From Tahibacter soli (GTDB lineage: Bacteria > Pseudomonadota > Gammaproteobacteria > Xanthomonadales > Rhodanobacteraceae), in contig NZ_JAOVZO020000020.1 in assembly GCF_025717065.2 (NCBI RefSeq), positions 62,001 through 126,000 of the forward strand: 64,000 nucleotides of DNA. The letters are read 5' to 3'. Below, piece by piece: positions 9,137 to 53,957 of this stretch. The notes under the pieces were generated by a model that saw only the letters and a list, made by a program, of their open reading frames with translations, was not told the origin of the DNA and searched no databases. Position 1 is the first letter of the stretch. The number at the start of each line of letters is the position of its first letter. The translations under genes were made by a program, and so were the position numbers.

Positions 9137-9273
9137 CCCTCTCCCCCAACGCGCATGCGTTGGGGAGAGGGTCGGGTGAGGGGGCGACGTCGGAGTCTTC
9201 GTCGCGGTCGACGAAGTGCGCAGCTCCGCCCCCTCACCCTGCCCTCTCCCCCAAGCGAGCTTGGGGGAGAGGG
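9137..9273. repeat. Paired CCCTCTCCCCC hairpin element (BIME-like), copy A
   Basis: Two hairpins lie in inverted orientation. The first has stem CCCTCTCCCC/GGGGAGAGGG at 9137-9171 and is followed by the tail GGGTGAGGGGGCG. The second is its mirror image at 9227-9273, preceded by the tail's reverse complement. The spacer itself holds a smaller dyad, CTTCGTCG with CGACGAAG. The same composite recurs at 31940-32076, and half of it at 53458-53503. Its place just after acnA suggests it may also end or protect transcripts. Confidence 0.85.
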
Positions 9274-9332
9274 TTCCGCGGCCGCCGCAGTATTTCTGCA
9301 TTTTCCACATTCAAGCGTTGTACGCGCCGCCG

Positions 9333-31902: not shown

Positions 31903-31939
31903 GGTGGATTTATCAACCCTTGAACTAGCGAATCTTTAG

Positions 31940-32076
31940 CCCTCTCCCCCAAGCCTGCTTGGGGGAGAGGGTTGGGTGAGGGGGCGGCGTCCGGCGCTTC
32001 GTCAAGGTCGAGGAAGTATCCGGCGTCTCCCCCTCACCCCAGCCCTCTCCCCAAGGCTGCGCCTTGGGGGAGAGGG
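31940..32076. repeat. Paired CCCTCTCCCCC hairpin element, copy B
   Basis: This has the same architecture as the element at 9137-9273: a hairpin with CCCTCTCCCCC arms, the tail GGGTGAGGGGGCG, a ~40-base spacer containing a CTTCGTC dyad, then the mirror image. It fills the gap between the aminotransferase and omega-amidase genes and may attenuate or stabilise the shared transcript. Confidence 0.85.
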
Positions 32077-39942: not shown

Positions 39943-40253
39943 TTGATCGTCGCTTTGTAGCTTTTGCCTGGCTTTCGACAAAGCGTTTCGCCCGCCTGCC
40001 GGCGGCCGAGTCACTTCTCTTTGAGTGGCAAAGAGAAGTAACCAAGAGAAACCACCCCGACGGCCGCGGTCTTAAGGGCATCCTGCCCTCCGACTCCGCG
40101 AGATCGCTACGGGGTTCGTTGAAGGGCCATCCTGGCCCTGCAACGAACTCGCGCGTATCCCTGCGCGCGACCCTGCGGGCTTTTCCTCCGCAATCTCGCC
40201 GCGACCGACGGGGCCCCGTGTGAAGCGGGCGGCTTCCTGCCGCCAGAAGCAAC
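39943..40253 (-). repeat. Structured CsrB/RsmZ-like repeat element, copy 1
   Basis: Read on the minus strand, the element starts with GTTGCTTCT and folds into an ordered series of hairpins. Loops are AGGAA (stem GGCGGC/GCCGCC), CAGGGATA (stem TCGCGCG/CGCGCGA), AGGAT (a two-part stem GTTCGTTG + AGGGCC) and AGGAT (stem AGGGC/GCCCT). These are followed by an 11-bp stem ACTTCTCTTTG/CAAAGAGAAGT, a GGCA tetraloop hairpin and a closing CGCTTTGT/ACAAAGCG stem. Helix GCGAGATTGC/GCGATCTCGC, with one wobble pair, encloses the second and third hairpins. Four exposed A(N)GGA motifs are the CsrA/RsmA recognition pattern. Transcription is not shown by sequence. Confidence 0.7.
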
Positions 40254-40276
40254 AGCCCATGCTCGGCGATTCCTTA

Positions 40277-40367
40277 GCTCGTCATTCCAGCGAGGAGCGA
40301 AGCGACAACGGCGCAGCCGGCCCGCAGGGCGAGCGACGAAGTCGCGAGTCAAGCTGGAATCCAGCTT
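40277..40367. repeat. REP-like palindrome with an expanded loop
   Basis: GTCATTCCAGC (from 40279) and its partner in AAGCTGGAATCCAGCTT (40351-40367) are the two arms of the REP type seen elsewhere. They are separated by about 60 bases rich in GCGA repeats instead of the usual few. It lies between structured elements 1 and 2. Confidence 0.6.
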
Positions 40368-40393
40368 TTCGGGCGTCAAGAACAACAGCAAAG

Positions 40394-40424
40394 GCTGGAT
40401 CCCAGCTTCCGCTGGGATGACGAG
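40394..40424. repeat. REP-like palindrome, intact reference copy
   Basis: CTGGATCCCAGC-TTCC-GCTGGGATGACGAG is a near-perfect hairpin. It is virtually identical to the sequence obtained by removing the IS30 element at 53982-55204, and so shows what the IS target looked like before insertion. Confidence 0.85.
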
Positions 40425-40454
40425 CATGTGGTCTGCGATGCTTTGGCCGTTGCC

Positions 40455-40764
40455 GTTGCTTCTGGCGGCAGGAAGCCGCCCGCTCTCCCCGGGGCCCCAT
40501 CTGCCGCGAGCAAGCGCCCGGTGATCAGGCCCGCAGGGGACGCACAGGGATGTGCGTCGTCCGTCGTGGGCCATGGATGGACCATCGACGGACCCCGCCG
40601 GGTGCTTGCGGTCCCCGCAGGGCAGGATGCCCGGAGGGGCGCGGCAGCTGGGGTGGCCTTCTTTGGTTACTTTCTTCGGCCAGTCGAAGAAAGTGACTCG
40701 CCCGCCGGCAGGCGGGCGAAACGCTTTGTTCAACGCCGGGCTAAAACTACAAAGCGGCCGTCAA
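40455..40764 (+). repeat. Structured CsrB/RsmZ-like repeat element, copy 2
   Basis: Hairpins in order: GGCGGC-AGGAA-GCCGCC (40464-40480); GACGCAC-AGGGAT-GTGCGTC (40539-40558), where ACAGGGATGT fits the CsrA SELEX consensus; outer GTCCGTCG/CGACGGAC with ATGGAT loop (40559-40593); GGGC-AGGAT-GCCC (40620-40632); ACTTTCTTCG/CGAAGAAAGT (40669-40694); TCGCCCGCC-GGCA-GGCGGGCGA (40698-40719); CGCTTTGT/ACAAAGCG (40722-40756). A 12-bp helix (40510-40521 with 40598-40609, one G-U) encloses hairpins 2 and 3. Stems differ from copies 1 and 3 by paired changes while loops stay the same. Two CCGTTG hexamers overlap its 5' edge. Confidence 0.72.
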
Positions 40765-53182: not shown

Positions 53183-53457
53183 GATCCACCTGTATGCAGT
53201 GGGTTGTGGTTAGCGAACGGCGTGGGTGCAACCGCGCCGTTCGCGCTTTGGCCCTTGAGCGATTGGTCGCTGCGGGCGACCTTTCAGAGAGCACCGCGCG
53301 GAAGGCCGTCAAGGATTCGGTTCTATCGAACTTGCGCAGTCCTTGACGGCCTGAGCACGGTGCTAGGCTGAGACGACCGCAGCGAGCTTTGTATTGCGTT
53401 CGAAGCTGCGAGCTTTGGCTTCTCGCCGGACGAAACGACAACGAAGACCGAAGCGTC

Positions 53458-53503
53458 GCCCCCTCACCCAACCCTCTCCCCCAAGCGGAGCTTGGGGAGA
53501 GGG
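53458..53503. repeat. Half CCCTCTCCCCC element, copy C
   Basis: This is a single hairpin with CCCTCTCCCC/GGGGAGAGGG arms preceded by GCCCCCTCACCC. It equals the right half of the paired elements at 9137-9273 and 31940-32076. The left half is missing. Confidence 0.8.
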
Positions 53504-53550
53504 CTTTGCGCGGCGCAACCCGGCGTCTACGTGTTTACTTTGCGCAAAAA

Positions 53551-53580: not shown

Positions 53581-53604
53581 CTCTGTAGAAGCGCCGCGCT
53601 TCGG

Positions 53605-53646
53605 CCGTCACCGTCACCGTCACCGTCACCGTCGCCGTTGCCGTTG
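53605..53646 (+). repeat. Seven tandem CCGTYR hexamers
   Basis: The run consists of four CCGTCA, one CCGTCG and two CCGTTG units. Two CCGTTG units also sit at the same place in element copy 2, and one degenerate unit in copy 1. The number therefore differs between copies, suggesting slippage at the 5' edge of the element. Confidence 0.85.
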
Positions 53647-53957
53647 CTTCTGGCGGCAGGAAGCCGCCCGCTCTACCCGGGGCCCCGTCGGTCGCGGCGA
53701 GATTGCGGAGGATCAGCCCGCGCAGCGGGTGGGCGCAGGGATGTGCGCAGTTCGTTGACGGGCCATGGATGGCCCATCAACGAACCCCGGAGCAAGCTCG
53801 CGAAGTTTGCGGGCATGGATGCCCGCAAACCGCGGCCGTCGGGGTGTCCTTGGAGAGTGCAGAGAGGGATTGGACAAGCAATCCCTCTCTGCTCGCTCGC
53901 GGCAGCGAGCGAAACGCTTTGTTTAAAGCCGGGCGGAAACTACAAAGCGGCAATCAA
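53643..53957 (+). repeat. Structured CsrB/RsmZ-like repeat element, copy 3
   Basis: Order and loops match copies 1 and 2. GGCGGC-AGGAA-GCCGCC is first. The second hairpin has GCGC arms around AGGGATGT. The third has outer GTTCGTTGA/TCAACGAAC and inner GGGCC-ATGGAT-GGCCC. The fourth is a 10-bp stem GTTTGCGGGC-ATGGAT-GCCCGCAAAC. Next is a 14-bp stem GCAGAGAGGGATTG/CAATCCCTCTCTGC, then TCGCTCGC-GGCA-GCGAGCGA, then CGCTTTGT/ACAAAGCG. The helix enclosing hairpins 2 and 3 is GCGAG...TTGC with GCAA...CTCGC. Several stems differ in both arms from the other copies. The REP that follows it is split by an IS30-family element. Confidence 0.72.

Follow-up and report, generated by a model that had tools for sequence, protein, structure and literature searches.

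A dispersed family of pseudoknotted, RNA-like elements with CsrA-type GGA hairpins in Tahibacter soli and other Gammaproteobacteria, related to TwoAYGGAY

The Rfam families nearest to the element described here, TwoAYGGAY (RF01731) and RsmW (RF02809), both belong to clan CL00106. One or a few genes encode RsmW and the CsrB/RsmX/Y/Z small RNAs, and these genes have a promoter of their own, in many cases with a GacA box, and end in a terminator. Xanthomonas campestris, from which the RNA RsmU is described, belongs to a group related to the host of the DNA analysed here, Tahibacter soli. TwoAYGGAY was presented in 2010 as a candidate RNA, which the available text calls probably an RNA and probably not cis-regulatory (PMC2864571), and CsrA binding was proposed for it in 2014 (available text of PMC4333381). 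The available parts of PMC11701678 and PMC7657543 mention improved base pairs of TwoAYGGAY, and that of PMC11661157 mentions the stabilities of its hairpins. According to the available text of PMC7694677, BLAST finds no CsrB/RsmX/Y/Z homologue in Xanthomonas, RsmU (sRX061) of X. campestris is an RsmA-sequestering RNA with four GGA motifs, and the RNA in which all four were changed still bound RsmA in vitro.

The window, a stretch of 64,000 nt of the 6.65-Mb genome of T. soli (G000:C20:62001-126000), carries three copies of an element of about 310 nt, at 39943–40256 on the minus strand (copy 1), 40446 (or 40455)–40764 on the plus strand (copy 2) and 53634 (or 53643)–53957 on the plus strand (copy 3). 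An earlier note had placed three copies here and given each of them four hairpins with GGA loops; repeat finding and alignment recover all three, the stems and loops that it quoted are found in the sequence, the SELEX-type fit in copy 2 is ACAGGGATGT at 40544–40553, and by-eye reading finds GGA loops in hairpins H1, P3, P4 and P5 of every copy. Its AGGAA, AGGGA and A(T)GGAT loops are likewise present, but the GGCA loop on the same list belongs to a separate hairpin without GGA. Copies 1 and 2 are arranged as a head-to-head pair, their cores separated by 282 nt and the spacer (40257–40445) containing REP-like palindromes; copy 3 has no close partner. Two subtypes can be distinguished: copy 2 is of type 1, copy 3 is of type 2, and copy 1 aligns with a type 2-like core and a type 1-like 3' hairpin. 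The fold z-scores of window copies, -6.0 and -10.0, lie beyond chance. Palindromes like CTCTCCCCCAAGC mark a further dispersed repeat, which occurs in the window at 9137–9280, 31938–32076 and 53441–53510.

The fold consists of a 5' hairpin (H1), a multibranched core and three 3' hairpins (H5, H6 and H7). In the core, stem P1 encloses P2 and P5, and P2 in turn encloses an unpaired stretch that reads AGGA in many copies, a mini-hairpin P2a (CCCGNAGGG), P3 and P4; R1, the covariance model of this core, has 160 positions and 53 pairs. In copy 2, H1 (GGCGGC AGGAA GCCGCC, 40464–40480) is followed by the core (40495–40655; R1 match, 123.7 bits), in which the sequence reads as P3 with loop AGGGAT, including ACAGGGATGT (40540–40557), P4 with loop ATGGAT (40559–40593) and P5 with loop AGGAT (40620–40632), all within the R1 match. 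A pseudoknot strand TGGCC (40654–40658) then pairs with GGCCA (40678–40682) in the loop of H5 (TTACTTTCTTCG/CGAAGAAAGTGA, 40667–40696), and H6 with loop GGCA (40700–40717) and, at the 3' tail, H7 (CGCTTTGT/ACAAAGCG, 40722–40756) follow. Copy 3 has its core at 53683–53846 (140.4 bits), with P3 (AGGGA in the loop, 53732–53748), P4 (loop ATGGAT, 53750–53785) and P5 (loop ATGGAT, 53805–53830) read from sequence and fold, a pseudoknot of TGTCC (53845–53849) with GGACA (53872–53876) of H5 (53859–53892), H6 with loop GGCA (53894–53911) and H7 (CGCTTTGT/ACAAAGCG, 53915–53949). Copy 1, on the minus strand, has its core at 40053–40213 (167 bits) and H1 with loop AGGAA at 40228–40244. In its P3 a C.A mismatch takes the place of the C-G pair that usually closes the loop, so that eight bases stay unpaired there, and for this reason a hairpin-finding script counts only two GGA hairpins in its core.

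That the stems change while remaining paired, as the earlier note had observed between the window copies, is borne out by strong covariation in two alignments, a check that it had proposed. When 25 diverse copies are aligned with MAFFT, 91.2% of the cells at paired positions can pair and two-sided changes occur in 281, compared with 93 +/- 8 after shuffling and 39–67 when the partner column is slid. In 124 rows aligned to the covariance model, 93.5% of the cells pair and 1667 are two-sided, compared with 457 +/- 27 shuffled and 244–316 slid; the slid controls keep the relatedness of the rows, which the shuffles lose. Alignment A2 holds 27 of 31 deduplicated copies (rows shorter than 195 nt and rows at least 88% alike having been removed) and A3 holds 25 of those 27. 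A4 was built from 83 sources, with the window and L071 representing most loci of the T. soli genome, and leaves out some duplicates, extra loci of represented genomes and L055 and L056, known from BLAST only. The pairing of the loop of H5, which lies downstream of the core, with the strand just 3' of P1 is also maintained under change: among 111 copies, 74 form at least 5 bp, compared with 22.7 +/- 3.7 (at most 36 in 200 shuffles) when the partners are shuffled, 22 form 4 bp and 15 none. The 13 other rows of the 124 either had too little sequence (three) or no hairpin scoring at least 7 (ten). The pairs formed include GTGGCC/GGCCAC, TGCCC/GGGCA, TGTCC/GGACA, TGTGC/GCACA, TGCTC/GAGCA, CGCGC/GCGCG and GTCGCC/GGCGAC. 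GC-rich sequence folds easily, and on this ground the copies might be chance folds or ordinary unstructured repeats; we give this explanation practically no credence, as the covariation already refutes it and as the pseudoknot result and the occurrence of matches in 23 families outside the order also contradict it. The multibranched core, the covarying 3' pseudoknot, the inverted pairs, the 3'-tail arrays and the kinship with TwoAYGGAY described below were absent from the earlier note.

TwoAYGGAY shares with the element two adjacent A(N)GGA hairpins in an enclosing stem, an occurrence in Gammaproteobacteria and a proposed binding of CsrA. Its defining arrangement, two adjacent AYGGAY-type hairpins inside a closing stem, is found here as P3 and P4 inside P2, with the Y at position 2 relaxed because many loops read AGGGAT or AGGAT. 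The element differs in adding P2a, P5, the pseudoknotted H5, H6 and H7. The window has no match to Rfam at the gathering threshold, and MIR8622, its top match in E-value mode, was taken as a GC-rich chance match. The best RF01731 score in the T. soli genome is 40.6 bits, under the gathering cut-off of 43, so that by the curated cut-off the element is a relative within the superfamily and not a member. Among 40 genomes positive for R1, RF01731 scores over its cut-off in seven and below it in seven more; matches over the cut-off, as in G203, G416 and G526, lie on or beside R1 matches in at least five genomes, these three and G619 and G498. At the gathering threshold, only L119 among 20 distant loci was matched, by two TwoAYGGAY matches, and at E <=0.1, 11 loci gave TwoAYGGAY in L102 and L104 and RsmW in L117 (33.2 bits). 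RsmW scores 31.3 and 22.7 bits at the two copies of the pair, below its cut-off of 52. It is highly probable, in our estimation, that the copies form a structured, RNA-like family akin to TwoAYGGAY that displays CsrA-type sites.

The earlier note knew of no description of such elements as a dispersed repeat family. It had overlooked TwoAYGGAY, on record since 2010 and 2014, but the dispersed, paired and pseudoknotted character of the family goes unmentioned in the available text of the TwoAYGGAY literature. High copy number and inverted pairs are likewise not mentioned in the available text of these papers; RF01731 matches nonetheless occur in such pairs. Literature searches with short H5 sequences, on dispersed repeats of Lysobacter and on CsrA in connection with repetitive extragenic or sponge elements returned no paper, and wider searches gave no title or abstract on it among the matches listed. 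The available text of PMC5568370 mentions neither Xanthomonas nor multiple copies, and the terms sought in PMC12306157 were not found there.

The earlier note had also proposed that loops are conserved while stems change, and this holds for P3 and P4. With one copy per genome (68 genomes), GGA is present in the loop of P3 in 61/64, of P4 in 67/68, of P5 in 26/47 and of P2a in 2/65, and in all rows in 110/117, 119/120, 54/94 and 4/119, respectively, counts that are somewhat favoured among R1 matches because the copies used to train R1 had GGA loops; the stem identity is 58% for P3 and 54% for P4 (one row per genome). Outside the order the same counts are 25/25 for P3, 27/28 for P4, 2/10 for P5 and 1/25 for P2a. 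The GGAs of P3 and P4 are 27–29 nt apart in 110 of 113 copies. The motif CA(N)GGA(H)G occurs 1.99 times per core, compared with 0.03 times for its reverse complement, and the exact ACARGGATGT, a consensus taken from the earlier note, in 20 of 124. Among the 38 type 2-like copies of T. soli neither the unpaired AGGA nor the GGA of P3 or of P4 varies, unlike that of P5; by itself this is weak evidence because 111 of 163 core columns are also invariant. We consider the binding of CsrA/RsmA to be the best reading of the element's working principle, and a somewhat probable one.

The strand on which this structure operates can be approached by comparing GU with AC at paired positions. On the GGA-bearing strand, GU exceeds AC by 92:29 when each genome contributes a single row, by 26:13 in the MAFFT alignment and by 106:51 in an alignment-free count on all rows, which indicates that this has been the structured strand over a long time. 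Recent copies of T. soli give GU:AC ratios of 91:85 (type 2) and 57:55 (type 1; 17 of 18 copies, a truncated one being left out), so that no recent selection on the RNA strand is visible and these copies appear close to neutral on this measure. Since in single-stranded DNA G.T is a milder mismatch than A.C, the strand test does not prove an RNA and is compatible with a mobile repeat that folds as single-stranded DNA. Folding energy cannot pick the strand, as the opposite strand of copy 3 folds too (z-score -10.25).

The functional strand might also be the opposite one, read by the neighbouring gene as a 3'-UTR or gene-end element: this strand folds equally well, and at most T. soli places the 3' tail is turned towards the neighbouring gene's end. 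In tandem gene contexts, single T. soli copies point against the genes by 12 to 1, so that read-through would produce the strand without GGA. The same count is 10 to 9 in G203 and 5 to 6 in G117 (it covers 30 of 32 T. soli singles, 40 of 73 matches of G203 and 14 of 27 of G117, with genes called by a crude codon-usage script), and a general rule that copies point against neighbouring genes, true in T. soli, was rejected since it fails in these two genomes. The lack of this orientation bias in G203 and G117 and the excess of GU on the GGA strand across genomes leave the opposite-strand explanation with very little probability. With similarly crude gene calls, mixed gene contexts surround ten pairs in G526, G619, G383 and G011, a group of three copies in G383 and six tail-to-tail pairs of G117.

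Like the CsrB/RsmX/Y/Z and RsmW RNAs, the element has several A(N)GGA hairpin loops within one unit: a script finds four GGA hairpins (H1 and three others) in 50 of the 56 T. soli copies and three in the other 6. RsmU, as described in the available text, too has four GGA motifs; it differs in being a single 3'-UTR-derived small RNA. To our knowledge, the core and the pseudoknot are not part of RsmW or of the CsrB/RsmX/Y/Z RNAs. The numerous GGA hairpins, and the wish for a substitute that the lack of a CsrB/RsmX/Y/Z homologue in Xanthomonas (BLAST; available text of PMC7694677) creates in that related group, would suit a classical CsrB/RsmZ-like sponge gene, with its own promoter and terminator, at each copy. 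The earlier note's designation as CsrB/RsmZ-like sponges implies such expressed small-RNA genes, and in this it was not sustained by the transcription signals. Upstream of the 56 copies the mean promoter-like score is 7.18 of 12, compared with 7.13 in shuffled sequence, and scores of at least 9 occur in 2 copies, compared with 1.65; simple scans find a GacA box in 0/56 and a T-run in only 1/56. Promoter, GacA box and terminator are thus not common to the 56 copies in such scans, unlike in CsrB/RsmX/Y/Z and RsmW, and an own promoter combined with an intrinsic terminator, as a sponge RNA would have, was not found by simple consensus scans. In the listed stretches upstream of single copies, little is common apart from short GTTGC-like runs and, in some of them, REP-like palindromes. 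That each copy is a sponge gene of the classical kind is unlikely.

The element is dispersed, as the earlier note had proposed, and besides single copies there are inverted pairs whose partners are unlike. In the T. soli genome, 64 stretches match copy 2 by BLAST, and R1 gives 56 matches in 44 places, 32 single and 12 paired; the end of C15 and the start of C23 carry copies of equal score and may be one place split by assembly. Sorting of the 56 by simple motifs gives 38 type 2-like copies and 18 others. According to gene calls by a crude codon-usage script, no predicted gene overlaps any copy; with other training, one of 30 singles is overlapped. The 12 close pairs are all head-to-head ('-+'), with gaps of 20–412 nt. 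Short tandem runs mark the 5' border (a run of at least 8 in 20/56 copies, compared with 4/56 further upstream), and after some copies the 3' tail is repeated as an array whose step is about 104 bp. In many copies H1 is directly preceded by runs of GTTGCC/GTTGCT or CCGTCA-like hexamers, for example at 40446–40458 and 53604–53649 of the window, and runs of other short units lie 5' of the element in L054, L094 and L096. Arrays of the 3' tail with a REP-like palindrome, again with a step of about 104 bp, follow a type 2 copy at G000:C18:1178536-1178905 (L033 1537–1906) and at G000:C23:196958-197305.

Dispersed intergenic copies in inverted arrangement (56 copies in 44 places) are what a mobile repeat would show. 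REPs are some 20–40 nt long. The element resembles REPs, BIMEs and REPINs in being intergenic, dispersed and present in inverted pairs, and it often adjoins REP-like palindromes here; it differs from REPs in its length of about 310 nt, its covariation, its pseudoknot and its relatives across the class. Mobile-repeat biology explains the dispersal, and could be either the principal account of the element or an accompanying one. In its stronger form, the element would be a mobile or formerly mobile, MITE- or REPIN-like repeat, with the inverted pair of ~310-nt copies or the single copy as the spreading unit and with the fold, of RNA or single-stranded DNA, and the GGA loops serving a mobilising enzyme instead of CsrA. 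Besides the copy number, the uniform pair orientation in T. soli, the border runs, the tail arrays and the near-equality of GU and AC in recent copies, this possibility accommodates the strand test as said above. Against it, no transposase was seen by inspection as part of the element, the gaps of the 12 pairs vary from 20 to 412 nt, BLASTn with one copy, which detects only near kin of the query, found no match in plasmid and phage records, and the loop signature and spacing closely fit CsrA sites. We hold this second reading to be possible but on the whole improbable. The idea of an autonomous form, in which the halves would flank a gene, was followed in two loci and rejected, as these carry unlike genes between copies: a 271-aa ORF in L253 and a 286-aa ORF, methyltransferase-like by eye, in L214. 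The head-to-head copies of L253 (3396–4799) lie on a contig labelled Candidatus Eremiobacteraeota, which is perhaps misbinned.

The family extends well beyond T. soli. With R1 (E <=0.001), matches were found in 70 of the 250 genomes sampled from the order, in 37 of 369 genomes of the class (34 of these outside the order, in 23 families) and in 7 of 299 genomes of a phylum sample of unstated make-up, all 7 belonging to the class. Numbers of matches per genome are lower bounds in these three scans; in a separate count, 73 were found in G203 and 39 in G111. A pattern for the H5 region matched, among the matches listed, named genomes of Dyella, Rhodanobacter, Luteimonas, Dokdonella, Frateuria, Lysobacter, Pseudomonas and Thiobacillus. 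On 22 loci with this pattern, R1 gave a match in 11, of which three are weak or incomplete (Lysobacter L274, Dokdonella L236, which is cut by an end, and Pseudomonas mangrovi L265, 28 bits), and found no core at those of Luteimonas, Thiobacillus, Frateuria, some Dyella and other Pseudomonas. This indicates an H5 hairpin without the core within the stretches examined, as in Luteimonas, Thiobacillus and Pseudomonas loci such as L205, L208 and L212.

Pairing is widespread too, and its form varies. Among opposite-orientation neighbours in A4 there are 34 pairs, 30 '-+' and 4 '+-', a variation that also argues against the mobile-repeat reading; all four '+-' pairs belong to family f2. The count took opposite orientations only, and same-orientation neighbours exist (three copies in L066, two in L052 and two in L109). 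In f2 (G117, L099, L101 and L102) the pairs are tail-to-tail and not head-to-head. RF01731 matches form '-+' pairs in G416, G526 and G619 and one '+-' pair in G416, and G268 has matches to R1 and RF01731 in both arrangements. In a tree whose bootstrap is unsettled, one partner from 14 genomes of four genera in f1 falls into one clade (15 rows, support 99/97), with the other partners outside; under the same reserve, partners sort by side between L099 and L101 of f2 (87/98 and 95/64), and one partner does so between L119 and L127 of f169 (99/98). The two partners of the window are not each other's nearest in this tree, but those of L059, L102, L113, L118 and L131 are, so that subtype pairing is not a general rule. 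Within the limits of this tree, two subtypes stayed paired through the divergence of some genera, not everywhere; pairs of old, different subtypes in four genera would also suit a mobile repeat.

If CsrA is the partner, carriers should possess it. A survey of 40 carriers, T. soli included and most carriers of the order falling outside it, found csrA in 34, and in 32 of the 33 that are well assembled. Six draft carriers gave no csrA over the cut-off (best match 16.7 bits, cut-off 27, search to E 5), and copies from four of these six keep the GGA loops. In family f59, G444 (11 matches) and G548 (14 matches) have no detected csrA and the copies examined from them keep GGA in P3 and P4, and G306 has csrA and no match. 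Carriers without detectable csrA are a point in favour of a mobile repeat, but as all six assemblies are fragmented we take them as a warning and not as a refutation of CsrA binding.

In summary, CsrA/RsmA binding is favoured by the covariation, the loops and their spacing, the pseudoknot, the strand bias, the kinship with TwoAYGGAY and RsmW and the presence of csrA in 34 of 40 carriers, and disfavoured by the lack of a promoter excess and of GacA boxes, the presence of a T-run at one copy only, the near-equality of GU and AC in recent copies, the orientation of the T. soli copies, the csrA-negative drafts and the loss of most P5 GGAs outside the order. We propose that the element is a divergent, elaborated relative of TwoAYGGAY, probably a structured RNA read from the GGA strand. 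Its multibranched core presents the two A(N)GGA hairpins P3 and P4, with their GGAs 27–29 nt apart, and each P3–P4 pair may dock one CsrA/RsmA dimer; hairpins H1 and P5 and, in type 2, the unpaired AGGA would offer extra sites. The pseudoknotted 3' hairpin H5, followed by H6 and H7, completes the fold. Judged from sequence, the element would be transcribed and bound by CsrA, and all copies together, or a few expressed ones, may titrate CsrA.

TwoAYGGAY has so far been, in the available text of the literature, a name without a tested function, and it now stands within a large family of defined architecture, with a core, a GGA pair of fixed spacing, a 3' pseudoknot, inverted pairs and up to 73 matches per genome. 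A bolder and doubtful idea makes TwoAYGGAY-type RNAs the paired ends of a mobile repeat found across the class, which would persist only if its RNA docks CsrA or some other protein that binds ANGGA; the dozens of copies in a genome would then buffer CsrA in a distributed and self-spreading way and, in some groups, replace RsmY/RsmZ-type small RNAs. The carriers in which csrA is not detected provide a sharp test of the CsrA reading. With this family it becomes possible to test whether dispersed repeats can serve genomes as carriers of CsrA sites, and how CsrA is controlled in groups without RsmX/Y/Z-type small RNAs.
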